Below are positions 12,352 to 64,000 of a stretch of DNA of 64,000 bases, one piece after another. How positions within the stretch are numbered: position 1 is the stretch's first letter; the number at the start of each line of letters is the position of its first letter. Position numbers and translations under genes: made by a program. A model generated the notes under the pieces. The model saw only the letters and a program-made list of their open reading frames with translations. It had not been told where the DNA came from and ran no database searches. Origin of the DNA: Xestospongia bergquistia (Eukaryota; Porifera; Demospongiae; Haplosclerida; Petrosiidae); the NCBI GenBank assembly GCA_963965975.1, contig OZ014422.1, positions 248,001-312,000 on the forward strand, written 5' to 3'.

Positions 12352-15300
12352 TCATAAAAATAAACCAGGATAATATGAAATAAGTAGGTCTGTAATTTTC
12401 TTTTGTTCTGGTAATTTCATCATGGCTGATAACTGGTCTGCATTAGCAGCTGGTCTCATAAGTGATGGAGCAAACACAACTGCTAAATTTTTACTATCCA
12501 TACGATTCGACTTTTTATGTTCTTGAACTCTACAGAGAGGAGGAGGGGCATCCCAGATTGTCATGACAACATTACAAAGCTAGACTTACCGGTACAGATG
12601 TTTCATAAGAAACTTTAGTGTGTTATAATGTGAGGGAGGTAATCGTTGAAGGATAACTCGAATAGTCTCTAAGGTTTCCTCATCTGTGGCACATCCTTAA
12701 GAAAACATGTTATTAAAACTAGTTATTAAAACTGGTAACACTTACTTGCAGCAATTAAAACTAGGTCATAATTATCAAAAGTTATTAATGGAATTGGTAA
12801 CTCTCGAAAGTACAATTTTAAAGCTCCAGCAATTGCATGAGGGTCATCATATGAGGCCAGATCAGCGTGCATCTCTATAGTAACAAAGACAAGGTGTTAT
12901 AAAATGTCAAGTTGAGAGATGTCATATTATTTGTAAACAGAGACATTTGTACTTCCTGCTGCTGACACATACAAGATAAGGATACAGCTGCTGATACATG
13001 TGTTAGGAACACATAAAAATTTGGAGACTGTACCAATAAAATTATACACAAGTCTAAAATAACTCCCTCTCTCTTTCTCTCTCTCTCTCTTCCTCTCTCA
13101 CCTCGATCAAACTGAGTCTTTATTTCTAATATTTCCACACTTTTACCCGGTATTCTGTACAGACCATCAATATTCAGACCTAATATATTATAATGTTACT
13201 ATATTTGCAGGTGGTATATATATATTATAATATAGTTAGGATTTATATGTAGTACATACCTCTCTTTTCCAACTCTTCAATACAATCTCTAACAACAATA
13301 GGTATTTTTGTACTATGCATTTTGACTAGAGTAGTCAGATCAACACCATATGCTAAAAATAAATAATTATATTAACTTAAAATCATTGATGACATCATTG
13401 ACATGATCAAAGTAAATTAGTCTATATTTGGTATAACATCTTATCTAAATATAATTGTCCTAGTATACTAACAATATACTAAAATATACTAACATAATAT
13501 ACTGATGTACACTATTATGACACCCAACTATATTAACACTTTTAATGTTGGCACAACAAAACATATTGTTTTTATTATTACATAATGTCTCTATAGACAA
13601 AAGAGCTGTGACAACTAGTATCAAAAGAACACCCACACAATCTAATTACCTCTCTTCACCAGCTGTTTTGTTGGAGTACAATCAGGTGGAGCACAATCTT
13701 TGCACTGTTTATGAGCCACATATCCACAATCTAATGCAGGGTAACCATGGTGATTATTGATGAATAAACAATAAATTAAATACAACTAACCTTTGCACTT
13801 GTAGCCTTGAGATCTCAAACCCCAAATAAAATTACGACAGAAATCACACCAGGGTACATTATAAAAGGTATGAATCTACAAAACAACATGAAAGAACAAT
13901 GCCGACAGCTGCTGGTGCCAATTATAAATATAATAAATGTTTCTATTTGGGTAATTAACTGTTAAATTATTGTCACTTAATACAATAATTATATCCAATT
14001 GTCCATCTTTACACAACAGTCTGTCCATCTATAATTTCTAATCCATTACACAGCATAACACAGCACAGCACAGCACAAAATCACTCCATATAATAATATT
14101 ATATTACATAATATTCTAATATATATATATTATATATTATATTATATAATACTACAACATATATACACTATATTACATAATACCATATGAAATCAGAAAA
14201 GTTATAGACCAATGTCAGTTAAATACAGTCATCACACATACCATATATAGATATGGTATATATAACACAGATAATATAAATTAAACTACTATATATAATA
14301 CAATATTGTTCATATGACATATATATGCAATATAAAATAAACTGTATACCTTGAAATTGTGAGGTTTTTCATAGTGATAATTATAAAGTGAACTATCCTG
14401 TCTAGAAGATGCTTCTTTGTCCTAGAAAGAGAGAGTGTATGTGTTATTAATAGCACCTTGACCTCTCCAGGAAATAAATATATTTAAATGTCAACATATC
14501 ACTAAGATAATGTATATTTAGATATCAACAAAGAAGCTAAGTATGTCATGTCTCTCTCAGTTACTATTAATTACTTACATTTCCAGCTATTGATGTGTTA
14601 ATGTAATTTTGATGTAAAGGTTCTTCAGAAATTGTCGACAATCCTACATTATCTGAATTACTTCTTAAGCCTGTAGGATTCCTAAAGAAGTGAAACAAAG
14701 AAATAAAATAATGACAGTTATTTTTAGAGAAACCAAATAGCTACAAAATGTGGCTAGAAGTGGCTGTTACTGGGCTGGCAAACTAAGTGAAGGCTAGACT
14801 TTGTTGCTTTCAACATGGTAGCTGAGGGACTTCCATTTCTTTAGAGATCACTTTGACTACCCAATGAGTATATGACCTTTCTATTCATCATTCCTAATAC
14901 AGTTCAGTACCTTGGTGGTAAGGGAGGAGGATGATCCTCTCTCTTTTCTTCTGTAATGGACTGACGTTTTGTCTCTTGTGCATTTCTCAAATATTCTTCA
15001 ACATTATTATCTTCCATATATAATGTAATCAGTCCGTCTGCTACAAGATCTTCAATATTGTCAAATGTGGGCTCTCCTTAAATAAGAGAAAAAAGTATTC
15101 TATTTTTTCTCCTAAAACACACTTACCAACAAAATGTTCACCATCTTCATAATGCAGTCGATAATGACGTACATTACCACCAAACCTGCACACAAAACCA
15201 GTCAAACAGGTATTGCATCTTTTAAACGACTCACATAAAAGAGAGACTATAGGTTCCAGATTGACTAAGTCCTTTGCGTACAAGATAACTTCCTTCTACT

Positions 15301-15833
15301 TTACCTAAAAGTCGAGCAGTTTCTTCTCTAGTAATTGCACCATGATACCTAGAATAGTAGTAAAATGCAGAATACTTTAGATATAGTGAGAAATATGTGG
15401 AGTATTTTAATAAAATTATTGAGTTAGGAGCAAAAAACAGTAACATACTCATCACTGTAGAATGGTGGACGGTCGGGCACCTAAATAAAATAAATACTTA
15501 ATAAGAAGATCTATTATTTGCTTACATATCTGAGACAAACTATCTTCTTTGGTCTAGGCGCTTGTTGTTGTAATTGATACACTGGGTAAAACAAAACACA
15601 TGTACGCATAACGTTTTATTATTGCTAGTTATAAGCTTACAATATGGATCCCAATACTCGGCGATCTCATCTCCTTCGCTGTGATACGAGGCTTCGCTGT
15701 CGCTATCCTCGATGTCTTCATAGTCAGAATCATCTTTATAGTAGCCACTATGAGTAGGAGGAAAACGAACCTGCTTTTCTTTTGTTGCACTTGTGCTTGT
15801 AGGATGGACTCGAGCCATCGCCATAGCTGACAT
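12352..15833 (-). CDS. CHN: Chimaerin-type Rac GTPase-activating protein (SH2-C1-RhoGAP)
   Basis: Diacylglycerol-responsive RacGAP. In coding order: a Ser/Asp/Glu-rich leader of about 45 residues from the ATG at 15833 (MSAMAMARV); the chimaerin signature '[18 protein letters not shown]' (about 15520-15580); an SH2 domain with '[21 protein letters not shown]' split over 15290-15350 and the phosphotyrosine-binding 'YLVRKG'; '[12 protein letters not shown]' near 15150; a C1 zinc finger with '[19 protein letters not shown]' (about 13798-13850); and a RhoGAP domain whose last exon has '[13 protein letters not shown]' (about 12450-12490). Stop is 12354-12352. The leader is longer and more acidic than in vertebrate chimaerins. 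An in-frame ATG exists upstream (15911), but the Ser-Ala start looks more natural. Intron near 14100-14300 is very AT-rich. Confidence 0.9.
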
Positions 15834-27500: not shown

Positions 27501-30500
27501 AATGCTACACCTCCAGTCAATAGAAACCTCCATGTATCCTCATCAACTTCTCCTTTTCCTTTCAATATTCCAATACAAAGAATGAAAGAGAAAAGAAGTT
27601 TGTCTTTCTCAAACAATGACCGACAGACATTGTTATAAATACTGAGTGTAAAGTGGTCATTGAGATTTTGTATTCTTTCTTGAAGATCAGAGGACTTAGT
27701 ACTGTTAGCTATAGACTGGATATATAAGTTGATGAACCACGTCAAAGAGTATTGGTACATGGGTTCAATGTTTGCTAGATCAGAGATACAGAAAAACAAG
27801 ATGGAGGAATGAACAGATACTGGATGGTAACCATTTCTTGTCTCATCTATTTCATTTTCTGTTGCAGTGGCAATTTCCTAATATGGAAGTATTGTAAAGT
27901 GCTTTAAACTGACTTAAACTGTTTACTTGTTTAGCTGTGATTTCTTCTGAAAGAGTTTTGGATGAAGAGAGAATTTTAATGGCTGTCTCATCTTCCAAAA
28001 TATTCCCCTACAGACAACATTATTAATTCATCAAATATCATATGATATAAACAATACCTCAGCTGATAGAACTTCTAATATCTTGTCTTCAATTTGTTTC
28101 AACTAGTTAAATAAATATCACTAAACTATTACAATATTTGATTCTACTGACTTGTTTTTTGTTCTCTGCACTCTCCAAAATCAACTGATTCTTCTTCTCT
28201 TCAAGTTCAGGCTTTTCTTTAGCAGCTACTATCCCCAACAGCTGATCTTCCAATCCAGTAGGAGTTATCATAAAGTTCACCAAACATACCTGAGTTATAA
28301 TTATCATATATACATATCATAATATATCCTATGTCTACCTTTACTGAGACCTCAGGTAAATAATGAGGATTTCTGAGACGAGTTGTGATATAGAATCTAA
28401 AGTCCTGACTGAATTCAATAACATTCTCTCCCAATCTCATATATTCCACACCACCTTGTTTGAAAGTTTGTTTAAGTAGTAGTGGTTCAAGTAATGGATC
28501 CAATTCCTCTCCTACATTCTCTAATAAGACAGGTGTACCAAATTGAATACAATTTTCTAATGTACGAGCGTATGTGGGATCTGAGAGTTTAATGACTGCA
28601 AGTTTGTTGGGTCTCTCTAAATTTTTGATCCATTTATTAGCTTGTCCTTGTGGGTCGATGAGGAGAGGCCAACGACGTGAGTTTGTGACAATGATACCAT
28701 TATCAACAGAGAAGGAATCCACTGGTAAACCTGCTATCTGCCAGGAACGGATCTTGACAGGTTGGCCGAGGGTAGCATTGAGAGAGAACTGTTTTGAACA
28801 AGGGATGCCTTTCTCTTGACATAATTTAAGCCATCCCTGGACACATTCTTGTCTAAAGTCAACAGTAAAAGCACCCAAATATGCTACTACTCCTGAAGAC
28901 AGCAATACATCCCCAGTGATATTATTGTAGCGAACACCAAGCTCCCTGGCTGCCTCACTCCAACGATCTTTCTCCCCTCCTAAACCTCCGATAAGCTTCT
29001 CAGCACGATCCAGTTTCTTGGAACATATATCAATATTTTCTTCTAATTGAGCTTTCTTTTTAGTCATAGCATCAAATTCCTCATTTAAAGATTGAAGTTT
29101 ATCAAGAATCTAACATTAAGATAGATATATAATATTTTATCTATCACACTTACAGTTTTTAGTTCAGCTCTCTTTGTGTTCAATTTCTCCATTTGCACTG
29201 ATAGTTCTCCTTGGGCTATTGCTAATGCTGCTTTCTTAGGAGCTACTACTTTAGCCACTCGATCGTAAACCTCCATAGCTCTTACCCATTTACAGAGACC
29301 TTCACAAGCTGTTGAGGCTGTCTTAACTACATCAGGATTGAAGTCTGCATTAGGCATATATCTAAAGACAAGACAAGTGAAGGATGAAACAATACAGAGT
29401 TCAACTCTTTACTTTTCTCGTATCTTTTTCATAATAGCAGGTTGAATATTGTCTTTATCATAGTTCTTTAAGTAGTCCAGAAATTTCATGTCACCAAGTA
29501 ATTTCTGTGAGGGTCCCCAAAAGTCTTCCACCATTTTTCCAGATCCACTCGGATCAGGTTTTCTCTCTGGTTTAATAGACCTCATAATACATACAGCTTC
29601 CATAACTAATTTTATAACAGGAGGTGGATTCTTCATAGCCTTTACTAAAGTAATATCAGAAGGTTTCAAAGTGTTCAGAGCCAAAATAGCTGCCTCCAGT
29701 GCTGGAATAGCCTCAGCTAGATCACTTTCACAATCATCTTTAATAGCTTGAGACTTAGCTGCAGCCTCATTAGCGACAGCTTCATCAGCTGCAACAACCT
29801 AGTGTGTGAATCATGTTGTATCATCATATTGTTGTATTTGGACTGACTTCTTTCTTAGCCTCTGCCTCCACTGTGTCTTTCTCAATTTTTACCATCAATT
29901 TAGCTGTCTCTTCACTTGTCTTTATTAACTCTGGTTGAAGCTCTTGTAGTTCTTGTTGCATTACTGATACCTAATACAATATTCAGTACATACTTCTCTA
30001 TGTTACAATAATGTGCATTTTATACCTGAGAGGCTGCAAATTCAAGTCTTTCTAAACCAGTTGTATATCTTTGTTTGAGTGTCATTATTTCGTTTCTTTT
30101 CAAGTTTAACAAACTTTTCAATGTAAGTATTAACTCCAAATATGAGGTGGGTGTGACATAGTTGTGACGACGTAACACAGCAAAGTATTGGTCAGAGAGA
30201 CTTCGAACACTCTATAATGAAAAGAGAGTAATATTATAATTATTTTTAGACTACATTATTATAAACCTGATGGAAATGTTGACACATTGATACACATTGT
30301 AATCTCATGCTGTCTTCCATGTCTAAGTCTTCCAGAAACTTGTTAGCTACCATCTCTAATGCATCTTGAGGCCAAGCCTAATGAGATTAGTACATTTCAT
30401 TTAGGACTTATTAATGTAGGGGTCTTGTCTCTTACTTGAAACCAGTCAATTGTGCAGCAGTTGATGAGAGAGGGGAACATACGAAGACGATTACGGAATG

Positions 30501-43746: not shown

Positions 43747-45301
43747 CTATGTGTAATTAGTATTATAAATAAGCCCATTTTCATCCACCTTCAGGTCACT
43801 AGTTTCCACTGGTATTGATGGCCTTGCACCATATAATGGATTTTTTTTAGTCGGTATATCATCATGTACACGAGGATCTGGAGACTTCTGACTCTCACGG
43901 ACATAGTCATATTGAAGTGCGTCAATACTAGCATAAGGATTTTCATTGGTTCGAGGGAGATCAGAAACTTCAACAAGTGACCTATTAACAACAAATAACT
44001 ATTAAATGAATAAAGATAAAAGTTTTAGGACTCACTTGATAGCTTTGTCATTCAAATCATTTTCCACAGTATTCTCACGAGGCTCACTGTAATACAACTA
44101 AATGATACAAGACACAATTAATTTATAATTACTTTTTCTTTCTTTGTTTTTGCACTCTCCATCCCCAAACACCAACTATCAAACATACAACTAATAAAAT
44201 CAATATAACAAACACTACTCCACCAGCTGCACTAGAGCCAATTATGATCAGTTGAGTAGTATCTTTCAGAGGACCTGCTGTCACAGATGGTAGTGCAGTA
44301 GCAGTACTTCTAAAATTACTAGACATAGCAGTTATTGTATCCATGATCATTGTTTGTGTCATTGTTGATGATGTCAGCACTATAGTAGTACCCATGATCA
44401 TTGTTTGTGTCAATGTTGATGGTGTTGGAACTATAAAAGGTAATATTGAAACTTTAATTACAAAACTATTTTGCTTTGAAAATGACTGTGGTTTAGTGAA
44501 ATAGCTGAAAAAGGATTAACTTAATAATCTAATATGATTATGATATTTATAAATACAGTATACTTGGAACTATGTCAATATCAACACTACCAAAACAAAT
44601 AGCAAAATAATGTCTATTTAATGGACTATGATATCCATATCATATCACATACCAATACATCCATAAACTTGAAACTGGATGCAAGCACGATCTGTATTCC
44701 ATGAACCAGGCAATGCAACAATTCGTATAAGTTCAGTTATTACTGGAGAAGGAAGTTGGGCAACTTGAGGATCCTCATTTGCTTCTCTTGGAAAAACCTA
44801 AATGTTATGAAGCAGCTGTTTCTCTAAATTGCTTTAATGTTTGAACTATATACCTTTGGATTACCAGTATCATTATTTATTACATACTGGAGTTGTCCTC
44901 CATTTAGACCATATTGTATATTGTAGTTGACAATATACTCATCACTCAAAACAATGATACGGTCATGACCAGCTACACTGACATTTATCACCTCAACAAG
45001 GTTACCAAATGTTACTTGGACCCATGGGGAATGACCAGTGCCACTCAATGGCATAGAACACCAACATTCATCAGATCCTAACCTGGCCTGTTCAGGAGTA
45101 TGGTCTTCATCAGCATAGCTAATAGCAGTGAAAGCATCATTAGACAAATTGCTATCTATTAATGGTTGAGATTGACTGCATTCTGCAATAAAAAGCAACC
45201 TCATGACAATCACTAGCATTATCATGGTTTACAGTCTTACCACAGTTAGCTAAGGTAGTAAACAGCAGGAGCACTAAATATAATGTTATATGAAGATACA
45301 T
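43747..45301 (-). CDS. Discoidin-type single-pass membrane receptor C
   Basis: Type I membrane protein. Signal-peptide exon MYLHITLYLVLLLFTTLANC (45301-45242) ends in phase 1. It joins 'ECSQSQPLIDSNLSNDAF...' and a discoidin/F5-8C-like domain over two exons: 'EQARLGSDECWCSM', 'GHSPWVQVTFGNLVEVINVS' and the closing 'RACIQFQVYGC' (about 44,660-44,700). A Thr/Met-rich stalk with repeated 'TQTMIM' follows (44,330-44,430), then a membrane helix (about 44,165-44,260) with KQRKKK stop-transfer. The cytoplasmic tail has NPYASI, YDYV, NPLYG and LIYNTNYT before the stop 43749-43747. Closest relative in the window is receptor D. Ligand and function unknown; the NPxY motifs suggest PTB or SH2 adaptor binding or endocytosis. 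Confidence 0.75.
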
Positions 45302-45699
45302 CATTCAACAGAGAACTGGTTAAACAGACTGGTAAAGTGAATTATAACTACTACCACCACCTCATTTATAAGATTTCACTTAAAATATGTCAGGTATTAT
45401 ATACCATAATTATATAATTACGTAATTATAAGTCTGCAGTAAATGTTAATTGTTAAGTGGTAGTGTTTTTTAGAGTGAACTCCTTTCTCAAAGGTGATAA
45501 TTATTCATTATTTAATTTTTTATAAAAATTTGGTACATCAAAATGAGATCTATATTGTCAGGGTCTTTATCCCTTTGATTTAGTAAATGCAAAATTTAAA
45601 TCTGAAAATAAACATCATTGTGGACACCTTCCAATAACTAATACTGAACAGCTATTTCAGACTGGTACTAATCCTAGCCTCTGCAGTCTCAGACCAGTA

Positions 45700-45952
45700 C
45701 ATATCCTCAGAAGTCTTGATCTTCAAATCCTATTAACCTGGCCTGTTCAGAAGTGTTGTCTTCATCAACATAGCTAGCTAACTATAATAAACTTAATGAA
45801 ATTAATTAATAATGGCTAAGATTGACTGGATTTTACAACTAAAGATACCAGCCCACATAACATCATGATTTACAGTCTTACCACAGTTAACTAAGGTAGC
45901 AAACAGCTGGAACACTAAATATAATGTTACATGAAGGTACTTCAGCTCCATT
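45700..45952 (-). pseudogene. Relic of a C/D-type discoidin receptor
   Basis: Contains a signal-peptide exon very like those of C and D ('YLHVTLYLVFQLFATLVNCG', about 45,890-45,945). About 110 bases downstream is a scrap 'SYVDEDNTSEQARL' (about 45,730-45,770), matching 'SYADEDHTPEQARLGSDE' of receptor C. The rest of the gene is missing and the scraps are broken by stops, so this is a decayed third copy between C and D. Confidence 0.65.
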
Positions 45953-46308
45953 ACACAACAAGAGAACTGATAAAATAATAAAAAGACCACTGCACTTGAT
46001 TTATTAATTTTAATATTTTAATAATTTTATCTCTATTATTTATTTGTATAATTCCTCCAGATGTAGTTGTAGTGTAGCTGTAGCATACTAATATTAATAG
46101 TATTATGTTAATACATTGTTCATTTTCTCATTCTATGATTCTCATTTGTTGCTGAAGCCTGTTGCTTGCTAAAATATATTAGTAATGAGGATATTGCTCA
46201 TGTGACAATGGATCAAAATGACATTATTATTAGCTATAAATATATTATTGTTCTTGCCTTTTTGAATATAATATTATTATTATTAAAAAACAATGCATTA
46301 ATAAATAG

Positions 46309-48051
46309 TTATCGAGCTCCACTAGATACATTGTAAAGAGGATTATTAGTGAACTCATTTTCATTCATCTTCAGATCACCATCCACTATTGCACCATATA
46401 CAGGGTTATCAGTAGTCTGAACATCACTGTGTCCCATAGGCATATAATCTTTAATATGACTTGGATCTGGAACTGAAACTTTTCCACTTAATATATCATT
46501 ATGACATGCATAGTCATAATGGAGTTCATTAGTATTGATGCAATCATAAAGATTATCATGGCTTTGCTTTTTAGGGAGATCTGGCACAGTACATGTATTA
46601 AAAGGTGAACTAAAGGGTATTTTTTACATGAATAGAAACAGAATATTTAGAACTAACTTAATATCTTTGTCTCGTATGAGTTTACAATAATTCCCAATTG
46701 AATCAGTATTCTCATAAGACAAAGAAATGTCATTGAGTCCACTATAATACAACACAACAGGTAATTCAAAGCTATTTTATACTTACCATAATTTTTTTTT
46801 CTGTCTTTGTACTCTCCAGTAACTCCATGCACATATCAATAAACACACTACTACTAAAACTATCATTAAGAACACTGCTCCACCAGCTGCACTAAATATT
46901 ATAATTAGTTGAGTAGAATCTTCTGGATGATGACCTATCGTCACAGATGGTCGGAGACTAGTAGTAGTTGTCATCACAGATGGCGATGAGAAATTGCTGA
47001 CAGTTGATCTATTGCCAGTAGAAGAAGTAATGATATTTTTAAAATTGTTAGAAGATATAGTAGTTAGTACATCATTGCTAGGAATTATAATACTGGTAAT
47101 AGTATCTCCAGATCCTTCAAAAGAGGCATCCATGGTGATCATTTGTTCATCTGTAGTGATGTAGATACTCTTATAAAATGAGGCTGTAGAACTAGTGACA
47201 TAAGATGATGTTTTTGATGGTTTAGGTACTAAAAGGTAAGAATAAATCACATAATTTCATTTGATACATTAAAAGAAGAATTGAAACAAACCAGTGCAGT
47301 ACAATCATTGCATGTTGATAAACTGTGATAAAAATATCACATAATTTGTAACATTGTACTGTAAGAGTTCATATTATCTCATGTTATCAACTATTTAATT
47401 GTGTCTATATAAATTACTACAACATACCAATACATCCATAAACCTCAAACTGGATACAAACCCGATTTGTATTAATCCAAGAACCTGGCAAAACTATAAT
47501 TCGTATAATTTCAGTTATTAGTGGAGAAGGTAGTTGAACAGTTTGAGAATGACTTTTTGCTTCTCTTGGAAAAACCTAAATGGTTTATAATGGCTATTTC
47601 AACTTGTTTTACTGTGTGGACTACCTTTCCACATCCAGTGTCATTATTTATTACATACTGAAGTGGTCCTCCATTTAAACCATATTGTATATTGTAGTTA
47701 ACAAAAGGTGTGTCACAATCTTCTACACTGACATTTACAACCTCAACTAGGTCATCAAATTCCACTTCTACCCATGGAGAATGACCAGTGCCATTCAATG
47801 ACATGGAACACCAACACTCTTCAGATCCCAACCTGGCCTGTTCAGGACTATGCTTTTCACTCTCATAACTAACAGCACTGAAGTCATAACCAGACAAATT
47901 CTTATTTATTAATGCCTGAGATTGATTGCATTCTGTAATAAAAAGAAATATCATGACAATCACTAACATTATCATGATTAACAGTCTTACCACAGTTAAC
48001 TAAGGTAGCAAACAGCAGGAACACTAAATATAATGTTATATGAAGATACAT
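46309..48051 (-). CDS. Discoidin-type single-pass membrane receptor D
   Basis: Same plan as receptor C. Signal peptide MYLHITLYLVFLLFATLVNC (48051-47992) in a phase-1 exon joins 'ECNQSQALINKNLSGYDF'. The discoidin domain has 'EQARLGSEECWCSMSLNG', 'PWVEVEFDDLVEVVNVSV' and closing 'RVCIQFEVYGC' (about 47,425-47,465). A Ser/Thr-rich stalk (47,220-46,920), a membrane helix (about 46,820-46,900) and WRVQRQKKK follow. The tail is longer than C's and carries LSYENTD, NLYDCI, DYMPMG, NPVYGA and NPLYNV; stop at 46,309. YMPM is the classic docking sequence for the p85 SH2 domain of PI3-kinase (family knowledge). Ligand unknown. Confidence 0.77.
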
Positions 48052-48593: not shown

Positions 48594-51500
48594 ATGAAGT
48601 GTGTAATGTATCTACTATTATTATATCTCTTAGGATCACTCTTTAGTTGCAGCTATAGCAATCAAGGTGAGTGAAGAGTGTCATCAATGGACAGTTGTTT
48701 TAGAAAATCTCTAATTTGTTCAGTGTGTTATGAAGTTCATCCTCTGGTAGCAGAAGAGAACGGGAAGAGAGTAAATAGTATCAATTCTAGACTATGTGGA
48801 GATAAAATATCATTGATTTACTCTTCTATGACTCACTTTGATCATATCAGTTTGATTTTGAGTGGTAAATTAGAACAATGTCAGAGAACACAATACAATA
48901 TTACTAAGGAACACCTCAAACAAGAAGTAAGATGATGGAGATGTCTATGGAATAAAAAGATTTTAAAATTCTATCTTATTTTCATTTCAGGTAATTATTG
49001 GCCATAGCTCTTGTGAAATTAAAGTTGCTCATATAAGTTCAACACTCCATATAGCAAATAAACATGGAGTATGTATAGAACAGATTAAAGTAAAGGACTG
49101 CCATAATATGAAGCATGGAGGGTCAAACAGTGGTGCAATTTCCAAAAGATGGCTTCCTAAAGAGCATCCATATAATGCTGACAAATTTCATTCATCATGT
49201 TAGTAATGGTACACGCACCCACAGTTGTGTGTCAACATTTGATGATCAAACAAGGAAATATTTATATATTAAATCAAGATTATCCATGACTTCACTGTCA
49301 ATGTATTTATAATACAGTTGCTAGCCAACAAAAAATCTATTTTAAATGACTTATAATGCACTGTTGATATCTAACAATTTAATTAGTTTTAATGACTGCT
49401 TGTTTTCTTTAGTAAATGGATTGTTTGTTGGACTTCTTTCATGTGGTGTGATAGTTGTAATGATAACAAGTTCAATAGGAGTACTTTTAAGGTAATGCCA
49501 AAGTAGTATACTATGCAATGGTCCTTGTTAGTATACATTGTGACGCTACTATTATAGTAATTAGAAATTGTTTAATACAACAAGGAATATCTTATAACTC
49601 CAAGAATTATAATTAATGCTAATTTTCATATTCTACAGTTGTTGTAATAAGCCCAAACATCATGATGTAGAAGAGGGTGCTGGACTAACTAACAATATTT
49701 ACCAAAATCAAGAGTAAGTCATTTTGAAATTGAAAGTCAAGTCATTTAATGACTCAATTTGTTTGTGTATACAGTAGAACATCTATACCGTTATTAATTA
49801 CTGGATCGCATGCGCCTCCTGGTACTCCTGAGGAAATCAATAGAGGTGAACAAACATATGATGTAAAATAAGAAATACAAACAGATGGTATCAGTTTCAA
49901 ATCAATTAAGACTATCCTTATTTAATAATGGCTTCTTCTCCTACAATAGTCTCACTTCCATTTACACCTCCAGACTACATTACCTCATTACAATTGGCTA
50001 ATGGAGACATCCCTCCACCAACTCCTCCAAGAAACAGTGTCCGAGCTAGTAATATTCAAATCAACGAGAACTATGAGCCTGAGGCTAATAATGAATGTGA
50101 CAACAACAATGATGTACAAAGCATTGACTCAACTGGTAAGGAAATGTTAACTGTCAATCAATACAGAAACCTTATGTGTATCAATACTGACCACATAAAA
50201 GCTTAGGGGAATATATGATAGTTTGAACTAGATAATCTATACAAGGAATTATTTGTTATATTTACTAGTGATAGTAATCCCCTCAACATGTTTAGTTCAC
50301 TTTGATATACACTTCTCTAAAGGAAGTGACTTAGACACATTAATGAATTTAAAATAACTTTCTATTCAATGGAAACATAGAAACATACAAGTCTTCTTTC
50401 TTCTCACAGAACTTGATCCTCATTATTACATTCTCGAGGGAGAAATGAACATTTGTAAGGACAAGGAAATTCCTGTTAATGAAGATAGAAAAGGGTCCTC
50501 TTCAGGTCAAGAAACTACTAAATCACCAGAATCAGGGAGACAATCAGGTGAGATTGGATATACCTTGCACAAAATACTTTGCTGTGTTACTTTCTAAGGA
50601 GAAAGAGCATATTTTGTTCTTGATATCACTGAAGATGGACCTTCTCCAACAGGTGAAGCCAATAAAACTCCAGGTGTGTCATTAGTGTACTCTATGTTAC
50701 TCCACTAATATTGTTTTTTTACTTTGTAGTTGGCAACAGAATTTATCATGTACTAGAACCACTTAATTCAGAATCTCAACTTTGTTCATTGTGTAACAAA
50801 CCACTACAAGAGGAGCAAGGTGTGTGTGTTATCTACTTTGATATGGAGATATTAATTTCTCTTATAGACTCAATGTATCTTGTCATTCTTCCTGATCAAC
50901 ATAAAGATCTCCATGATAAATCAGACACTACCGACAATACAGGTAATTGTAACAGGATATTTTATTATCTGTCTAATTATTATTATTAAAATAGAGGATG
51001 ACCCCATATATCATGTACTGGAACAACCATCAGTTATATGTCAATCTTGTCTCTGTGCGCAAGGTAATTGTCATACTATTGTTAGTATTATGAGATAGAT
51101 CATATTTTACAATGTATTATTATAGAATCTGATCCTATTTATCATGAAGTTGGTGGTAACACAACAGGTAAAATAATTTCATTTATTGAGAAAGTAAAAT
51201 GATGTTTATTACAGATCCTGATCCTGTTTATGAGAAAATTAAAAATATGATAAGACAAGATACATCAGTCAGTTTAAAATCTCACATTTATTCTACTGTT
51301 CCTAGTATTGATGTACCAGAGCCAGGTAATATGATATGACTTAATTATTAATATTGTTCATCAAATGCATTATTGGTCTTTAGATGAGCCCCAAACACCT
51401 TCAAGTTCAAGGAAGGTACTTTTACAGGAGATAAGAGTAGCCAGTAGTAGCAGTGATTACGCTAGTGTCCCCAACTCTCCAGTACAAGAAACAACACGTC

Positions 51501-52492
51501 AATTAGGAGATGATGACAAGAGTGATCAGCGTCACCATAGTAACTTATCTCACCTTGTTAGTACACTAAAATCAAAATTAATGTATCAGCTGAAACACAT
51601 GAGGCAACAAGATGTACCAGCAAACTCTAGAGAAACTGCCATTTCTCCAAAACAAGTTGACACCAACTCAAAATCCATTGACATGATACCCATCAATGAC
51701 AATGATAATGAGCCTCCTCAAGCACCTCACCACACCTACATTAACACAGGACCTACAGTAGATCCTGCTATCACTCTCACACAGGTCCAAATGAAACTAG
51801 ATAGCATGAAAAGTCACATGGAAAAGAAAAGGAAACCTTCGTATTCAATGGATAACTTATCTCCTCGAAGTCTTGTTCGGTCCAAGTCTCATAATAATTA
51901 TACACCACTTATAATTGCACAGAGACAAAAGACAGGATCATATCATGTACTCAATGTAGAGGATATCTGGAGACATCAATTGGCTAATCGATATGCACCT
52001 GTTTCAATAGTAATGGCAAGATCCCCCAGTCCAGTCAAGGCCCGAAAGGGTACTAGTATGAAATCACGTAAGAGCTTTATACGTGAAAAACTAGTCACTG
52101 GTTGCCATGACTCCAATACTTCTGATTATGAAGTGCCTCTTGCAATCCTCCCAAAACCTTCACAGGAGGTAATTCCACCTCCACAGGAGGCAATTCCCCC
52201 TCCACATGTCCTTCAAACCAGGAAGAGTCTTCCCCGTCAGGATGCTTTACCTTTCATTGAACAGTATTATGACTCTCTTATCCCTGAAGATGATGAAGGA
52301 AGACTGTATACAGTGAGCAGTGAACCATGTCTTGGATCTTTGTGTAATGATTATGATTACTTGGAGAAACTATCGCGAACTCCCTCGCCAACAAAATCTC
52401 CAATGAGACTGCCATTAGACAGGAAGGTTAGTGTTCCTCCATCCAACAATGATTATTATGATCATACTTGGGATGAAGAGACAGAGTGTTAA
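48594..52492 (+). CDS. Membrane receptor A with a long tyrosine-motif tail made of phase 1-1 exons
   Basis: Signal peptide MKCVMYLLLLYLLGSLFSCS at 48,594. The ectodomain of about 130 residues is Cys-containing and unrecognised (48,723-48,928 and 48,991 to about 49,130; the donor of the second exon is uncertain). A membrane helix is encoded at 49,413-49,491, followed by SCCNKPKHHD. The tail then runs over exons 49,950-50,135, 50,410-50,547, 50,599-50,673, 50,730-50,819, 50,868-50,942, 50,995-51,063, 51,126-51,167, 51,215-51,325 and the large last exon from 51,384. The eight internal ones are each a multiple of three and join in phase 1. Tyr motifs: NYEPEA, DPHYYILE, RAYFVLD, NRIYHVLE, SMYLVILP, DPIYHVLE, DPIYHEVG, DPVYEKI. 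The last exon (about 369 residues) adds SDYASV, HTYINT, SDYEVP and Pro-rich stretches (PPPTPPR is in the first tail exon). AATAAA at about 52,559. Probably a signalling scaffold receptor. Confidence 0.72.
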
Positions 52493-54342: not shown

Positions 54343-56275
54343 ATGATGATGCAATTTCTAACACTAGTACAAATATTATCAGTTATCACAACTCTGTCTT
54401 ACACAGATGGTCAGTCGATTACCATACATGTACAAATAATGTAATATACTCAGCATTCATTACAATATACATTAACTTACTCTCCACTGTTTAGATATGC
54501 CAGTAATTTACACTACTATATTTTTCTAAGTAACATTAATGGCATTTTACTATATTATGTATTAGATCATTTGATATTATTTTACTACACTATAGATAGT
54601 GAGTGTAAAGAACCATTGTTAGATGGGACATTGTACAGAGTTATCGATAACTATTTCACAGCTAGTGGCTCTTTAAATGAGTCTCATCAACCGTATGAAG
54701 CTCGACTTAATGGATCAGGATGGTGTGCTGATGAGCAAGGATTTAACATTTTTAATCCATGGTTGCAAATAGAATTTGGTACTGATGTGAAAATTAACAG
54801 AATAACGATAATGGGTGCTGAACTTGATAAGACTTCAAGTTATATATCTCATTTTCAATTGGAGTATTGCAATCACAATACATGTACTAGCTATATAAAA
54901 ACAAAGGTAATGATTTTAATCTAATAATTTTTATCATCACTTAACTACACAGATCTTTGCTATTAGTAATGTTTCTAGTGCTACATTCAACTTGAATATA
55001 ACTGCAAATAAAATAAGAGTTCTACCAATAGAATGGGTGACCACTACACCATGTATTCGTATGGAATTATATGGATGTCTAGAAGATCCCAGTTAGTAAA
55101 ATTAATAATTGATTAATATTATCACGTTCTTAAGGATGTCTTGATAATGAAGATCTATTAACCACAGAACCAAATATTAATATGGTGTCTAGTTTGGGAA
55201 CATTTATTTTTAATTTTGAATCATCTGTTACTCTGACAACTATTGTGATTGACTCTGATATTGTGTTACAAAATGTATCATTTTATACTGACACGTTTTA
55301 TAAGGATTTTAACAACACTGAGGTAAATATTTATCAATTAACATGCACTATTACAATATCAATTAGGTGTTTAATTTTTCACGAGTTTTCACTTTCTGGA
55401 TGCCTGTACTGCATGTCCAAACAACATTAAATATCACCATATTGAATGCTACATATATCAATTCAACATCAATTACATTTTATGGATGTAATTCATCTGA
55501 TGCATATGGTTAGTTCAGTAAAAAAATATGTCAAGTTTAATTTTATATCAGATATGTTGCGGCCAGAGACTAGATCATCTTTGGTGTTACCTTCTCCCAC
55601 GTCCTCTCTCTCTCCCTCAGCTTCCTCTCAGGTGTTACCTTCTCCTATATCCTCTCTCTCTCTCTTGACTTCCTCTCAATCTGCTATTATCTCTCCAGTA
55701 ACAAGTGTGATAGTAAGAACAAACTATTTAGTTGCCATTGCTGGAGTACCAATAGCAGCAATCACCATTATTATAGTCTTTGTGATAATTCTCTGTGGAG
55801 TTAGTTATATCTGTTACATTAAAATACAAAATGAAAGAAAAATACAGTTAGTACTTAATTATATTATAGCAACTATCACTTGTTTATTTGTTGCAGGCAA
55901 CTTGCTTTGCCTCCTGACGATAATAACACTGAAGTGACTTTGAAAACATTGCAAAATAAACTATATGGGCAAAGAGAGTGAGTAAATGGTTGATTGATGT
56001 TGTTATATACATATGTATGACAATGTAGGGATTATGATTTCCATGTTGTTAATCCTGGTACATCAATGATTGATGATAGTTATGATAGTGGTCAGAGAGA
56101 TGCAAGAGCCTATTCAAGTAATATGTTGGAGGAAACGACTATGACATGCAGTGATACTACTGTAGAAAATGATGCTGACAGTCAAAAGAGTAAAAGAGCT
56201 TACTCAGCTCCCTCAAGAGATATTTATAAAGTCAAACCTGAAGATAGACTGACTGCAACATATGTTAGCATATAA
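54343..56275 (+). CDS. Receptor E: two discoidin-like domains, membrane helix, tyrosine tail
   Basis: Signal peptide MMMQFLTLVQILSVITTLSY (54,343-54,411, phase 1) joins 'DSECKEPLLDGTLYRVIDNY'. Discoidin domain 1 has 'EARLNGSGWCAD', 'NPWLQIEFGTDVKINRITIM' and closes 'PCIRMELYGC' (about 55,045-55,080). Domain 2 begins CLDNED (about 55,137) and closes 'SITFYGC' (about 55,485). Then comes a Ser/Pro stalk with repeated 'VLPSP.SSLS' (55,590-55,690), a membrane helix 'VAIAGVPIAAITIIIVFVII' (55,730-55,800) and KIQNERK. The tail has YDFHVV, DDSYDSG, AYSSNM, IYKVKPED and ATYVSI-stop (56,275). Introns are 40-185 bp. This is the only complete type-E gene; its 3' half has been copied twice downstream. Confidence 0.78.
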
Positions 56276-58326
56276 AATATTTTGTGTGCATTGTCATATT
56301 TAATGTGTGGGAGGGCTGGTATAATTAAGTTGGTGGAGTATGGCTAGATGTCTTGTGACCCTGCTAGTAGTGTTAGAGTTGATATTAAAGACTGAGGCTA
56401 CTCATTTAGGTAAGGTTATTCTTTACTGAACTAGCACTGTGTGAATTATTTCTCAGAATGTCAACCTGAGGCAGTACAATTGATAACTCCAAATGATGTT
56501 GTTGCATCTAATGTTTTACATGGATCTGATTTTGAAGATATTTTAACAGTGACAGAACAAAATTCAGCACTACTTTGGGGTGATAATGACATACCTAATG
56601 AAGGTAATCTAACTTTTCAACAGCCATTTCTTTTGCTTGCCATGACATCAATGGGAGACCACATTTTTGATGACTATTTTATTTCAAATTTCTCATTACA
56701 ATATTCTGACTCTTTAAATGGATCATTTCATGCTTACTCTCGGGTTAGTAACATCATTAATATCTCTATAAATTACAGTATCTATTTTTTGTTAAGTTTT
56801 TCATTACTGATACTCTTGATGAGACAGCATTTTACTTGGACAAACCAATATTGGTGAAAACATTACGATTGTTTATCAATGCAGCCACTGATGATTACTA
56901 CTGGCGTCTTAATCTTATTGCCTGTCCCCAAATTAATAGTAATTGTGAACTGGATTTATTTTAAAACATTTTAAATTTCTATAGCAACTCTTGTACCAGA
57001 GCTAACATCAATAAGTTGTGTAATGTCTTCAACTGGAATATCTCTTTCCAGTTCCCAAACTGTGACTATTTCAAGTAGTCCTGCAATAACTCCAATAATT
57101 GATAGCCAAGAGTCCAATGATAGTTGTCAAAATGTTCTGATAGCTACTGGAATAATTGGATTACTTTCATTGTTATTATTAATAGTTACAATAGTCAGTG
57201 TGGTTGTAGTATGTTATCAATGTTTGAACAGGAGGTAAGGAATGTTTGTCTTACAACATATTGGAATTAGGGAGGAAATCAATAACATTGTTTTTGTAGA
57301 GAGATCAAACGATGTTTTTTTTAATTCAATTTAGGGAAGAGAAACGTGGACGTACTGGGACACTCAAGGAAGTCCCTAATATACCTCTGTACTCTACAAC
57401 AAAGTAAATTGTCACAAATATCAATACTTATCTCTCTCTTTATTATGTAGTAACGATGAAGAAGAAGAGACAATGATTGATAATGCTTTGTATGAGTCCA
57501 AGTAAGTCAATAATACTAACTAATAGGGACACATTTGCTGAGATAACTAGCAACAAATTATTGAGATAACCTCAATTTGTTATACATACAGCACATTACC
57601 AAGTAACTTCACAATTTCAAGTATATCTATATAATATGTACACAGCCTGCCAACTTTATTTCCCTAGTACATCTGGTAATTACTTGCTATATATTAAATT
57701 GTATAACATGTAAGTATAATTATATATCGAGCTTATAACATAGACCTTGGGTAGTAAGTTAAAAGTGTAAAATCATAACATGCTTTGGGTCATTAGCTAA
57801 TTAAGTTCCTCTATTATATATAATCATATGGCAATATTGGAATTCCTGAACTACTTGTGTATATTATAGTCAATAATGTTTGTTTGTAACATAATAGATG
57901 TTCCTTTTATTACTAACAGTGTATCATCATCTATCTCACCACAAACATCAGAGCTTAATTCTTCTACATCTTGTCTCCTTGCTCAGACTGATAATATTTA
58001 CTCTGAAGTGAATACATATGAGCCAACACTTCTAGGAGAACAGGGATATGAGAAAATAACAGAACAGAATCCAGTTAAATACACTTCTGGCTATGAACCT
58101 GTTGGTACTGGGAATGAGACTATTGAAGCTGGAAATTTGGAGTACAACATTGTTGACAATCCAGCTTATAATTATTAATATTATACTCACTATAACTTTT
58201 AATTAAAATAATAATACATTTTAATTAATTATGTAACAAATCTGATATTGTTTTAGGAACAACAGGCTCTTCAACATCCTATAATTAATAAAGACATAGT
58301 AATCCATTGTTCATTTCTCTTACCAA
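55592..58326 (+). repeat. Tandem duplication unit 1
   Basis: 2.7 kb: 3' part of receptor E plus the whole of receptor B1. It starts at 'ttctcccacgtcc' inside the E stalk exon and ends about 35 bases after the B1 AATAAA (58,287), at 'cttaccaa'. The following copies begin again at the same E position. Confidence 0.85.
56340..58178 (+). CDS. Discoidin-type membrane receptor B1
   Basis: Signal peptide MARCLVTLLVVLELILKTEA (56,340-56,410) ends in phase 1 and joins 'ECQPEAVQLITPNDVVASNV'. The ectodomain is one discoidin-like domain over two exons: 'FQQPFLLLAMTSMG', 'SNFSLQYSDSLNGSFH', then 'LDKPILVKTLRLFINAATDD' and closing 'RLNLIACPQI'. A short Ser/Thr stalk and a membrane helix 'VLIATGIIGLLSLLLLIVTI' (57,140-57,200) follow. 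Tail exons give EEKRGRTGTL..IPLYSTT, NDEEEETMIDNALYES and a last exon (from 57,918) with NIYSEV, GYEKI, GYEPV, EYNIV, NPAY before the stop at 58,178. Its ectodomain differs from B2/B3 at scattered residues, and it lacks a stalk repeat they carry. Confidence 0.78.
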
Positions 58327-59012
58327 TTCTCCCACGTCCTCTCTCTCTCCCTCAGCTTCCTCTCAAGTGTTACCTTCTCCCATATCCTCTCTCTCTCTCT
58401 CCCTTGACTTCCTCTTAATCTGTTATTGTCTCTCCAGTAACAAGTGTGATAGTAAGAACAAACTATTTAGTTGCCATTGCTGGAGTACCAATAATAGCAA
58501 TCACCATTATTATAGTCTTTGTGATAATTCTCTGTGGAGTTAGTTATATCTGTTACATTAAAAGACAAAATGAAAGAAAAATACAGTTAGTACTTAATTA
58601 TATTATAGCAACTATCACTTGTTTATTTGTTGCAGGCAACTTGCTTTGCCTCCTGACGATAATAACACTGAAGTGACTTTGAAAACATTGCAAAATAAAC
58701 TATATAGGCAAAGAGAGTGAGTAAATGGTTGATTGATGTTGTTATATACATATGTATGACAATGTAGGGATTATGATTTCCATGTTGTTAATCCTGATAC
58801 ATCAATGATTGATGATAGCTATGATAGTGGTCAGAGAGATGCAAGATTCTATTCAAGTAATATGTTGGAGGAAACAACTATGACATGCAGTGATACTACT
58901 GTAGAATTGTTGCTGACAGTCAAAAAAACAAAGAGTTTACTCAGCTCCCTCAAGAGATATTTATAAAGTCAAACCTGAAGATAGACTGACTGCAACATAT
59001 GTTAGCATATAA
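58322..59012 (+). pseudogene. Headless copy of receptor E, frameshifted (E-psi1)
   Basis: Begins in the middle of the E stalk exon with no signal peptide or discoidin domain upstream. It keeps the membrane helix (58,480-58,560), intron and tail. The stalk is out of frame with the helix, and a single-base loss in 'gtagaattgttgctgac' (E has 'gtagaaaatgatgctgac', about 58,905) ruins the last tail exon. Confidence 0.85.
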
Positions 59013-61181
59013 AATATTTTGTGTGCATTGTCATTTTAATGTGTGGGGGTTGGTATAATTAAGTTGGTGGAGTATGGCTAGATGTCTTGTGACCCTGCTA
59101 GTAGTGTTAGAGTTGATATTAAAGACTGAGGCTACTCATTTAGGTAAGGTTATTCTTTACTGAACTAGCACTGTGTGAATTATCTCTCAGAGTGTCAACC
59201 TCAGGCTGTACAACTGATAACTCCAAATGATGTTGTTGCATCTAGTCTTTCACATGGATCTAACTTTGAAGATATTTTAACAGTGACAGAACAAACTTCA
59301 TACTCCGATTATTGGGGTAATTATAATATACCTAATGAAGGTAATCTAACTTTTCAAAAGCCGTTTCTTTTGCTTGCCATGACATCAATGGGATACTACC
59401 TTTCTGATGATCGTTTTATTTCAAATTTCTCCTTACAATATTCTGACTCTTTAAATGGATCATTTCATACTTACCCTCAGGTTAGTAACATCATTAATAT
59501 CTCTATAAATTATAGTATCTATTTTTTGTTAAGTTTTTCATTACTGATACTCTTGATGAGACAGCATTTTACTTAGACAAACCAATATTGGTGAAAACAT
59601 TACGATTGTTTATCAATGCAGCAGTATTCTCCAATTTTTATTACTGGCGTCTTAATCTTATTGCCTGTCCACAAATTAATAGTAAATTGTGAACTGGATT
59701 TTATTTTAAAACATTTTAAATTTCTATAGCAACTCTTGTACCAGAGCTAACATCAATGCGTTGTGTAATGTCTTCAACTGAAATATCTCCCTCCAGTTCT
59801 ACTGTTACTATTACTAACCAATGTCCAGAACTAACATCAATAAGTTGTTTAATGACTTCAACTGAAATATCTCTCTCCAGTTCTACTGTTACTATTACTA
59901 ACCAATGTCCTGTACTTACCAGTACTGATCAAATCATTGTTACAATTACAGAAACTGTGACTATTTCAAGTAGTCCTGCAATAACTCCAATAATTGATAG
60001 CCAAGAGTCAAATGATAGTTGCCAAAATGTTTTGATAGCTACTGGAATAATTGGATTACTTTTATTGTTATTATTAATAGTTACAATAGTCAGTCTGGTT
60101 GTAGTATTTTATCAATGTTTGAACAGGAGGTAAGGAATGTTTGTCTTATAACATATTGGAATTAGGGAGGAAATCAATAACATTGCTTTTGTAGAGATAA
60201 CATGATTTTTTAAAAATTCAATTTAGGGAAGAGAAACGTGGACGTACTGGGACACTCAAGGAAGTCCCTAATATACCTCTGTACTCAACAACATAGTAAA
60301 TTGTCATTAATATCAATACTTATATCTCTCTCTTTATTATGTAGTAATGATGAAGAAGAAGAGACAATGATCAATAATGTTTTGTATGAATCCAAGTAAG
60401 TCAATAATACTAACTAATAGGGACACATTTGCTGAGATAACTAGCAACAAATTATTGAGATAACCTCAATTTGTTATATATACAACACATTACCGAGTAA
60501 CTTCACAATTTCATATATATCTATATAATATATGTACATTGCCTGTCAACTTTATTTCCCTAGTACAAATGGTAACTACTTGCTATATATCATATTGTAA
60601 GTATAATTATATATTATAGCATAGACCTCGAGTAGTAAGTTAAAAGTGTAAAATCATAACATCACTAGCTAATTAAGTTCCTCTACGATATAATCATATG
60701 ACAAATTGGAATTCCTGAACTACTTGTGTATATTATAGTCAATAATGTTTATTTGTAACATAATAGATGTTCCTTTTATTACTAACAGTGTATCATCATC
60801 TATCTCACCACAAACATCAGAGTTTAATTCTTCTACAACTTATCTCCTTGCTCAGACTGATGATATTTACTCTGAAGTGAATACATATGAGCCAACACTT
60901 CTAGGAGAACAGGGATATGAGAAAATAACAGAACAGAATCCAGTTAAATACACTTCTGGCTATGAACCTTTTGGTACTGGGAATGAGACTATTGAAGCTG
61001 GAAATTTGGAGTACAACATTGTTGACAATCCAGCTTATTATACTCACTAACTTTTAATTAAAATAATAATACATTTTAATTAATTATGTAACAAATCTGA
61101 TATTGTTTTAGGAACAACAGGTTCTTCAATATCCTATAATTAATAAAGACATAGTAATTCATTGTTCATTTCTCTTACCAA
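58327..61181 (+). repeat. Tandem duplication unit 2
   Basis: 2.86 kb copy of unit 1: E-psi1 plus receptor B2, ending after the B2 polyadenylation region at 'cttaccaa'. Introns are nearly as conserved as exons, so the duplication is recent or homogenised. Confidence 0.85.
59074..61050 (+). CDS. Discoidin-type membrane receptor B2
   Basis: Same exon plan as B1, with signal peptide MARCLVTLLVVLELILKTEA at 59,074. Ectodomain differences from B1 cluster in short patches ('VASSLSHGSNFED', 'TSYSDYWGNYNIP', 'GYYLSDDRF', 'AAVFSNFYYW'), while the flanking framework is unchanged. The stalk holds two copies of a ~28-residue Thr/Ser/Cys unit (ELTSxxCxMxSTEIS / SSSTVTITNQCP, 59,745-59,915) that B1 lacks. 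The helix lies at about 60,030-60,100. The tail retains NIPLYSTT, NVLYES, DIYSEV, GYEKI, GYEPF, EYNIV and NPAYYTH before the stop at 61,050. Confidence 0.77.
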
Positions 61182-61330
61182 AAGTTGTAATGCTTGAAAT
61201 GGAGAACATAAAAGACCAAATCTTTCTGTAGAATTAATATCAACATCATAATATTGTCTTCTTTCATGTTTTCCAGCCATTCTTTGATCAGCCATATCTT
61301 TGTAATGTTCACTTAACTAACAATAATAAT
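61182..61330 (-). other. Unique ~149 bp insert at the unit 2/3 junction, possibly an exon fragment
   Basis: Present only between units 2 and 3, exactly where unit 1 joins unit 2 directly. On the minus strand it is open throughout and reads like protein: 'HYKDMADQRMAGKHERRQYY' and 'DVDINSTERFGLLCSPFQAL'. It may be a captured piece of another gene; source not recognised. Confidence 0.4.
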
Positions 61331-62016
61331 TCTCACACGTCCTCTCTCTCTCTCCCTCAGCTTCCTCTCAAGTGTTACCTTCTCCTATATCCTCTCTCTC
61401 TCTCCCTTGACTTCCTCTTAATCTGTTATTGTCTCTCCGGTAACAAGTGTGATAGTGAGAACAAACTATTTAGTTGCCATTGCTGGAGTACCAATAACTG
61501 CAATCACCATTATTATAGCCTTTGTAATAATTCTCTGTGGAGTTAGTCATATCTGTTACATTAAAAGACTAAATGAAAGAAAAATACAGTTAGTACTTAA
61601 TTATATTATAAGGACTATCACTTGTTTATTTGTTGCAGGCAACTTGCTTTGCCTCCTGACGATAACAACACTGAAGTGACTTGAAAACATTGCAAAATAA
61701 ACTATATAGGCAAAGAGAGTGAGTAAATGGTTGATTGATGTTGTTATATACATATGTATGACAATGTAGGGATTATGATTTCCATGTTGTTAATCCTGGT
61801 ACATCAATGATTGATGATAGCTATGATAGTGGTCAGAGAGATGCAAGAGTCTATTCAAGTAATATGTTGGAGGAAACAACTATGACATGCAGTGATACTA
61901 CTGTAGAAAATGATGCTGACAGTCAAAAGAGTAAAAGAGTTTACTCAGCTCCCTCAAGAGATATTTATAAAGTCAAACCTGAAGATAGACTGACTGCAAC
62001 ATATGTTAGCATATAA
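61331..62016 (+). pseudogene. Headless copy of receptor E, frameshifted (E-psi2)
   Basis: Same truncation point as E-psi1. The helix is intact (61,470-61,550). The exon after it has lost one T ('gaagtgacttgaaaac' near 61,675 against 'gaagtgactttgaaaac' in E), which creates an immediate stop. The last tail exon (to 62,016) is intact, so the lesion differs from that of E-psi1. Confidence 0.85.
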
Positions 62017-62077
62017 AATATTTTGTGTGCATTGTCATTTTAATGTGTGGGGGTTGGTATAATTAAGTTGGTGGAGT

Positions 62078-64000
62078 ATGGCTAGATGTCTTGTGACCCT
62101 GCTAGTAGTGTTAGAGTTGATATTAAAGACTGAGGCTACTCATTTAGGTAAGGTTATTCTTTACTGAACTAGCACTGTGTGAATTATCTCTCAGAGTGTC
62201 AACCTCAGGCTGTACAACTGATAACTCCAAATGATGTTGTTGCATCTAGTCTTTCACATGGATCTAACTTTGAAGATATTTTAACAGTGACAGAACAAAC
62301 TTCAGCCTCCGATTATTGGCGTGATTATATCATACCTAATGAAGGTAATCTAACATTTCAACAGCCCTTTCTTTTACTTGCCATGACATCAATGGGATAC
62401 TACATTACTGATGACCGTTTTATTTCAAATTTCTCCTTACAATATTCTGACTCTTTAAATGGATCATTTCATACTTACCCTCAGGTTAGTAACATCATTA
62501 ATATCTCTATAAATTATAGTATCTATTTTTTGTTAAGTTTTTCATTACTGATACTCTTGATGAGACAGCATTTTACTTAGACAAACCAATATTGGTGAAA
62601 ACATTACGATTGTTTATCAATGCAGCAGTATTCTCCAATTTTTATTACTGGCGTCTTAATCTTATTGCCTGTCCACAAATTAATAGTAAATTGTGAACTG
62701 GATTTTATTTTAAAACATTTTAAATTTCTATAGCAACTCTTGTACCAGAGCTAACATCAATAAGTTGTGCAATCTCTTCAACTGAAATATCTCCCTCCAG
62801 TTCTACTGTTACTATTACTAACCAATGTCCAGAGCTAACATCAATAAGTTGTTTAATGACTTCAACTGAAATATCTCTCTCCAGTTCTACTGTTACTATT
62901 ACTAACCAATGTCCTGTACTTACCAGTACTGATCAAATCATTGTTACAATTACAGAAACTGCGACTATTTCAAGTAGTCCTGCAATAACTCCAATAATTG
63001 ATAGCCAAGAGTCTAACGATAGTTACCAAAATGTTCTGATAGCTACTGGGATAATTGGATTACTTTCATTGTTATTATTAATAGTTACAATAGTCAGTGT
63101 GGTTGTAGTATTTTATCAATGTTTGAACAGGAGGTAAGGAATGTTTGTCTTACAACATATTGGAATTAGGGAGGAGATCAATAACATTGCTTTTGTAGAG
63201 ATAACATGATTTTTTTAAAATTCAATTTAGGGAAGAGAAACGTGGACGTACTGGGACACTCAAGGAAGTCCCTAATATACCTCTGTACTCAACAACAAAG
63301 TAAATTGTCATTAATATCAATACTTATATCTCTCTCTTTATTATGTAGTAATGATGAAGAAGAAGAGACAATGATCAATAATGTTTTATATGAATCCAAG
63401 TAAGTCAATAATACTAACTAATAGGGACATATTTGCTGAGATAACTAGCAACAAATTATTGAGATAACCTCAATTTGTTATATATACAACACATTACCGA
63501 GTAACTTCACAATTTCATATATATCTATATAATATATGTACATTGCCTGTCAACTTTATTTCCCTAGTACAACTGGTAATTACTTGCTATATATCATATT
63601 GTAAGTATAATTATATATTATAGCATAGACCTCGAGTAGTAAGTTAAAAGTGTAAAATCATAACATGCTTTGGGTCACTAGCTAATTAAGTTCCTCTAAT
63701 CATAATCATATGGCATTATTGGAATTCCTGAACTACTTGTGTATATTATAGTCAATAATGTTTGTTTGTAACATAATAGATGTTCCTTTTATTACTAACA
63801 GTGTATCATCATCTATCTCACCACAAACATCAGAGTTTAATTCTTCTACAACTTATCTCCTTGCTCAGACTGATGATATTTACTCTGAAGTGAATACATA
63901 TGAGCCAACACTTCTAGGAGAACAGGGATATGAGAAAATAACAGAACAGAATCCAGTTAAATACACTTCTGGTTATGAACCTGTTGGTACTGGGAATGAG
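62078..64000 (+). CDS. Discoidin-type membrane receptor B3 (3' end outside the window)
   Basis: Signal peptide at 62,078 identical in plan to B1/B2; ectodomain nearly B2 ('TSASDYWRDYIIP', 'GYYITDDRF'). Double stalk unit at 62,750-62,915, membrane helix at about 63,035-63,110, then the tail exons EEKRGRTG..., NDEEEETMINNVLYES and the start of the last exon with DIYSEV, GYEKI and GYEPV. The reading frame is still open at the window edge, just before where EYNIV/NPAY would be. Confidence 0.76.

Follow-up and report, generated by a model that had tools for sequence, protein, structure and literature searches.

A sponge gene predicted to encode a membrane protein whose tail is built from consecutive phase 1-1 exons carrying tyrosine motifs

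Introduction

Multivalent tyrosine tails are common, but in most of them one or two exons set the number of sites. The receptor kinase RTKB2 of Monosiga brevicollis has a tail with six RM2 repeats of about 80 residues, whose SH2-binding tyrosines follow acidic residues; one RM2 on its own became phosphorylated and bound an SH2 domain of the Src family (excerpts of PMC3584944). The fester co-receptors (FcoR) of Botryllus are single-pass proteins with long tails containing ITIM, hemITAM and core Y-x-x-I/L/V motifs, which are swapped by splicing at some loci (PMC12065747, in excerpt). In vertebrate inhibitory receptors of the CEACAM1 type, tyrosine motifs lie on small cytoplasmic exons that can be omitted by splicing (PMC5856374, in excerpt). 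The ITIM/ITSM tails of PD-1 and BTLA carry a pair of motifs separated by 25 residues, which SHP1 and SHP2 engage through their tandem SH2 domains, and in many such receptors the spacing is similar (excerpts of PMC8631942). Motif spacing is critical to SHP2 activation, according to excerpts of PMC10231330 and PMC7078208.

Here we describe a gene of the sponge Xestospongia bergquistia, found in a stretch of 64,000 nucleotides analysed as a whole (contig OZ014422.1, hereafter the window, to which positions refer). The tail of its predicted product resembles that of RTKB2 in its serial repeats; in it, exon and motif form the same unit, and that unit matches the reach of a tandem-SH2 reader.

Results

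A predicted single-pass protein with a long tail

The gene model was assembled from GT-AG sites kept in a single consistent frame. It comprises 15 exons on the + strand (48594-52492), all joined in frame, and encodes 867 amino acids (Table 1). All 14 introns are GT-AG, and retention of any one of 13 of them would bring in an in-frame stop. The exception is intron 10, which could be retained in frame because it is 48 bases long and contains no in-frame stop. The predicted protein consists, in order, of a hydrophobic leader or signal peptide, an orphan ectodomain of about 140 residues, a transmembrane exon whose hydrophobic stretch begins at residue 163, and a 680-residue tail. The signal peptide and the transmembrane exon are both visible by eye in the model translation, from which the topology was judged; on these two features we infer a type I, single-pass, cell-surface 'receptor'.

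A Pfam search of residues 1-498 and of exon 15 returned no families, and the sole match in a PDB search with residues 1-236 had an E value of 0.77. These searches gave no sign of an Ig or sushi ectodomain of the CEACAM or FcoR type, nor did Pfam detect the cytoplasmic kinase domain of a receptor tyrosine kinase. Two cassettes contain a CxxC (Table 1); to call this a metal-binding or fatty-acylation site would be a guess only.

Table 1. Exons of the gene model, in window positions
Feature	Position	Strand	Content	Basis
Exon 1	48594..48666	+	start codon and signal peptide	gene model; hydrophobic N-terminus by eye
Exon 2	48724..48926	+	ectodomain	gene model; no Pfam family
Exon 3	48991..49198	+	ectodomain	gene model; no Pfam family
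Exon 4	49413..49491	+	transmembrane helix	gene model; hydrophobic stretch by eye
Exon 5	49639..49713	+	cytoplasmic tail begins; Cys-Cys, YxN	gene model
Exon 6	49775..49845	+	tail; 3' end phase 1	gene model
Exon 7	49950..50135	+	phase 1-1, 186 bases; two Tyr, no YxxPhi; proline-rich stretch	
Exon 8	50410..50547	+	phase 1-1 cassette, DPHYYILE (Y304)	
Exon 9	50599..50673	+	phase 1-1 cassette, AYFVLD (Y349); alternative in-frame donor 50653	
Exon 10	50730..50819	+	phase 1-1 cassette, RIYHVLE (Y375), CxxC	
Exon 11	50868..50942	+	phase 1-1 cassette, SMYLVI (Y403); sole strict ITIM among cassettes	
Exon 12	50995..51063	+	phase 1-1 cassette, DPIYHVLE (Y430), CxxC	
Exon 13	51126..51167	+	phase 1-1 cassette, DPIYHEV (Y453)	
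Exon 14	51215..51325	+	phase 1-1 cassette, DPVYEKI (Y467) and HIYSTV (Y487)	
Exon 15	51384..52492	+	C-terminal, 368 residues; more Tyr motifs; stop codon	

Eight consecutive exons of one phase class

A preliminary description of this DNA had given exons 7-14 lengths of 186, 138, 75, 90, 75, 69, 42 and 111 bases, with phase 1 at every junction. The lengths are exact, and the nine introns from 6 to 14 are all phase 1, making each of exons 7-14 a 1-1 exon; the phases of introns 1-5 are 1, 0, 1, 2 and 2. Introns 8-14 are short (47-62 bases). An alternative in-frame donor in exon 9 would shorten it from 75 to 54 bases and still leave it 1-1, and symmetry is therefore independent of donor choice here (donor scores of 4.5 for the alternative vs. 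6.6, on a generic matrix). The suggestion that a cassette could be skipped without a frameshift holds for the model, the cassettes being phase-symmetric and the tyrosine-hydrophobic motif recurring from one to the next.

The tyrosine motif occupies a fixed position

The seven tyrosine-hydrophobic motifs previously claimed are all present, as one YxxPhi opening each of exons 8-14, where it falls within about the first six codons. Its tyrosine is at the identical codon in five of the seven exons, four of which read DPxYxxPhi. Within-exon shuffling matched the presence of YxxPhi in all seven exons in 5 of 200,000 trials, a tyrosine at the same codon in five of seven in 15 of 200,000 and a YxxPhi at the same codon in five of seven in none of 200,000, frequencies uncorrected for the choice of exons 8-14 once the motif was known.

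A blind scan for chains of phase-1 exons opening with YxxPhi found nine links at this locus, comprising all seven cassette starts and two spurious ones outside the gene model, vs. at most four in 60 simulated 64-kb strands, two in the rest of the window, whichever the strand, and two in 29 other loci, 15 of which belong to one repeat family. A stricter version gave five links here vs. at most two. When the rule requiring an early tyrosine was dropped, the scan gave 10 links here, up to seven in simulated strands, six at other loci and six on the other strand, and also a phase-0 chain of eight links at the same locus. The relaxed scan separates poorly, which makes the fixed position of the motif the distinctive feature.

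The tail as a whole has 27 tyrosines and 14 YxxPhi motifs, compared to 5.7 expected (reached in none of 20,000 shuffles). Only two of the 14, Y403 and Y524, match the strict ITIM consensus S/I/V/LxYxxI/V/L (as given in excerpts of PMC8631942). The earlier label 'SH2/ITIM-like' is not supported in the strict ITIM sense, with one of eight cassette YxxPhi motifs fitting.

Likeness between cassettes is confined to the start of the exon

Among the 28 pairs of exons 7-14, each compared with 1,000 shuffles, five are similar at p<=0.002 (8-12, 9-10, 10-12, 12-13 and 13-14) and seven at p<=0.05, while exons 7 and 11 match none of the other cassettes significantly in this test. The similarity is limited to about the first nine codons: cassette pairs are 0.41 identical in their first 27 bases, individual pairs reaching 0.70, against 0.25 for pairs drawn from seven control exons in this gene. 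A repeat search detected a 35-base DNA repeat common to exons 12, 13 and 14 and a 26-base repeat common to exons 8, 13 and 14, both starting just upstream of the acceptor and spanning it, as well as a 22-base repeat (86%) common to exons 10 and 12, inside the motif.

Outside this region the likeness disappears. With the motif removed, none of 21 exon pairs is similar at p<=0.05, and intron sequence from -30 to -16 has an identity of 0.29 for cassettes vs. 0.37 for controls. We thus found no likeness beyond the short motif or in the flanking introns, one of two expectations for duplicated exons; the other, a common phase class with the motif at a common position, is borne out.

The earlier proposal of exon duplicates therefore survives in part. 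Most cassettes are plausibly related, as the pairwise tests indicate; the S..C..C tract of exons 10 and 12, said to unite these two cassettes (the fourth and the sixth), lends this no support, since that pair is among those losing all significant similarity once the motif is taken out. The idea that unequal crossing-over is still tuning the array fares worse, as the intron flanks of the five best exons are 26-41% identical pairwise, the level of unrelated flanks. Because linkers and intron flanks resemble one another no better than shuffled or control sequence does, any duplication would be old, and ongoing unequal crossing-over is unsupported. We conclude that in the linkers between motifs the trace of duplication has been lost or was never present, and that unequal crossing-over would today find little to act on.

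Exon skipping would change the number of sites and largely keep their spacing

The tyrosines of exons 8-14 follow one another at distances of 45, 26, 28, 27, 23 and 14 residues; those of exons 9-13 are thus 23-28 residues apart, close to the 25 given for PD-1 and BTLA, the outlying values being at exons 8-9 (45) and 13-14 (14). Each distance approximates the length of the preceding exon, because the tyrosine opens its exon. For the same reason, skipping a cassette would cut the number of sites and barely alter the distance between those left: computed removal of exon 10, 11, 12 or 13 puts the new neighbours 24, 30, 27 or 23 residues apart, respectively. All 49 spacings in all 26 subsets of exons 9, 10, 11, 12 and 14 lie within 23-30 residues, a set picked after exons 8 and 13 were seen to break the rule. 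Counted over the full 120 subsets of exons 8-14, spacings of 20-32 residues make up 70% of the 321.

Copies elsewhere

A protein search of the sponge's own 146-Mb genome with residues 1-498 gave 12 matches, all of them exons of this gene, and with exon 15 a single match, to itself. No second copy was found at a sensitivity that is low for short exons (exon 13 matched itself only at E 1.07), such that diverged cassettes could escape. The exon-initial DPxYxxPhi pattern has 29 matches genome-wide vs. 21 for the reversed pattern: 15 belong to one repeat family, three to this gene (within about 250 bases) and 11 lie elsewhere. Read by eye, these 11 include no clear cassette; two of them (L018 and L025) may be exons of something. 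There is no excess of the pattern outside this gene.

Exon 15 was also searched in two collections with few or no animal genomes, giving 18 pattern stretches, none confirmed, in genome_contigs and none in viral_contigs. The window contains no Rfam matches and no tRNAs. A pattern for the active site of silicatein matched once, at a site with Cys in place of Ser, and one weak frame of the innexin family was detected; the size of the genome, its AT-richness and its short introns are in keeping with a sponge. A literature search, with subscription journals mostly outside its reach, retrieved nothing that describes a tail of this kind or an SHP expansion in sponges.

Candidate readers in the same genome

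SH2 domains match at 81 places in the genome and tyrosine-phosphatase domains at no fewer than 194 (150 of 405 candidates scored). Pairing the coordinates of the matches listed gives at least nine loci with the SH2-SH2-PTP order of SHP-type phosphatases, linked to the receptor gene by occurrence in the same genome only. Six are in tandem within about 18 kb (G000:C3:1265457-1283528), one of them with a stop inside the phosphatase match. C3 carries a seventh at 916 kb, and there are others on C6 and on C7, that on C6 being in two pieces. In the one SHP-type locus that was read, two SH2 domains accompany a phosphatase domain, and the nearest solved structure is PTPN11 (E 4.8e-121). Humans have two SHP-type genes.

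Other matches are also clustered. Ten SH2 matches occupy about 75 kb at G000:C6:1622265-1697212, and a separate C6 match (L047) combines an SH2 domain with a tyrosine-kinase frame. The phosphatase-domain matches include large clusters on C5, C9, C10 and C2 of G000.

Neighbouring genes

On both flanks, the gene is accompanied by other predicted membrane proteins with tyrosine-rich tails, compared here at the level of open frames. Two related genes on the minus strand, at about 43.7-45.3 and 46.3-48.0 kb (43747-48050), are 68% identical over 125 residues and have several tyrosine motifs per terminal frame; one has an F5/8 type C match just below the Pfam cut-off. On the + strand from 54.4 kb (54445-63137) lie more predicted membrane-protein genes, among them one whose F5/8 type C match exceeds the cut-off. 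Their tail copies at 57870 and 60739 (+), tyrosine-rich in one frame, are 94% identical, and these genes appear from their sequence to be recent duplicates. Farther away, the window contains an SH2-domain exon (15231-15497, minus strand; Pfam 32.5 bits), which presumably resembles chimaerin, and a dynein heavy chain motor domain (28219-29109, minus strand).

Discussion

On the features of the model translation, the gene probably encodes a single-pass membrane protein whose long, likely disordered tail would serve as a multivalent phosphotyrosine platform. A tyrosine kinase would phosphorylate the cassette motifs, and SH2 proteins would then bind them, among them SHP-type phosphatases, whose tandem SH2 domains would need two sites at about the cassette distance. 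The array itself would go back to old in-frame duplication of exons, after which the linkers diverged fast. Omission of a cassette by splicing would leave fewer sites with nearly the same spacing, and the number of sites, though not their spacing, could in this way be changed by exon skipping.

How the array arose and what its motifs do can each be read otherwise. Short linear motifs might have converged in unrelated short exons, each acquiring its tyrosine independently and without duplication. We consider this doubtful, but it would account for the loss of all likeness outside the motif (0 of 21 pairs), the unrelated intron flanks and the isolation of exon 11; moreover, the G at the exon end restricts the first residue of each of the seven cassettes to D, E, G or V. 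It is harder to reconcile with the codon position and phase shared by five of seven exons and with nucleotide identities as high as 0.70 in the first 27 bases. Old exon duplication thus remains the likely origin, itself deduced from the exon starts because the intron flanks are unrelated. As for function, YxxPhi is a generic sorting signal, bound unphosphorylated by the mu subunits of clathrin adaptors, and the tail might instead control uptake of the protein. Seven serial copies, the acidic DP lead-in (DPxY in four of seven) and a spacing of about 25 residues nevertheless exceed what sorting usually needs, and most of the motifs are far from the membrane. For a signal of this kind in a CEACAM tail there is a precedent in excerpts of PMC5856374. 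We judge sorting improbable as the main role of this tail, and retain the phosphotyrosine platform as the preferred reading.

Whether the exon layout has a use is a separate matter. The tail could be constitutively spliced, its phase 1-1 symmetry having no regulatory use, and introns as short as 8-14 could simply always be removed; we put the chances of this at about even. Nothing speaks directly against it, but the neighbouring genes with tyrosine-rich tails hold several tyrosine motifs in one open frame, and the one-motif-per-exon layout is therefore not general in this region. At the other extreme, skipping might act as a dial of valence that preserves spacing, setting the number of SHP-type docking pairs with every remaining pair readable and the expanded SHP-type genes of this genome as the readers. 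This elaboration of the platform is a long shot. If isoforms exist, the tail would offer variable site number at held spacing, a test of valence alone in SH2 signalling, and an early-animal parallel to the spliced inhibitory receptors.

The comparison with described systems places this tail between several of them. Compared with RTKB2 (excerpts of PMC3584944), it has smaller units (14-46 residues), each on an exon of its own, and we could find no kinase domain in the protein. The FcoR proteins have Ig and sushi ectodomains and form a polymorphic paired family (PMC12065747, in excerpt), whereas the ectodomain here is an orphan and one gene was found. Receptors of the CEACAM1 type have few cytoplasmic exons and Ig domains (PMC5856374, in excerpt), in contrast to the seven consecutive one-motif exons of a single phase class described here. 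Finally, where PD-1 and BTLA present two motifs of strict consensus (excerpts of PMC8631942), the cassettes of the sponge tail present eight, one of them strict.
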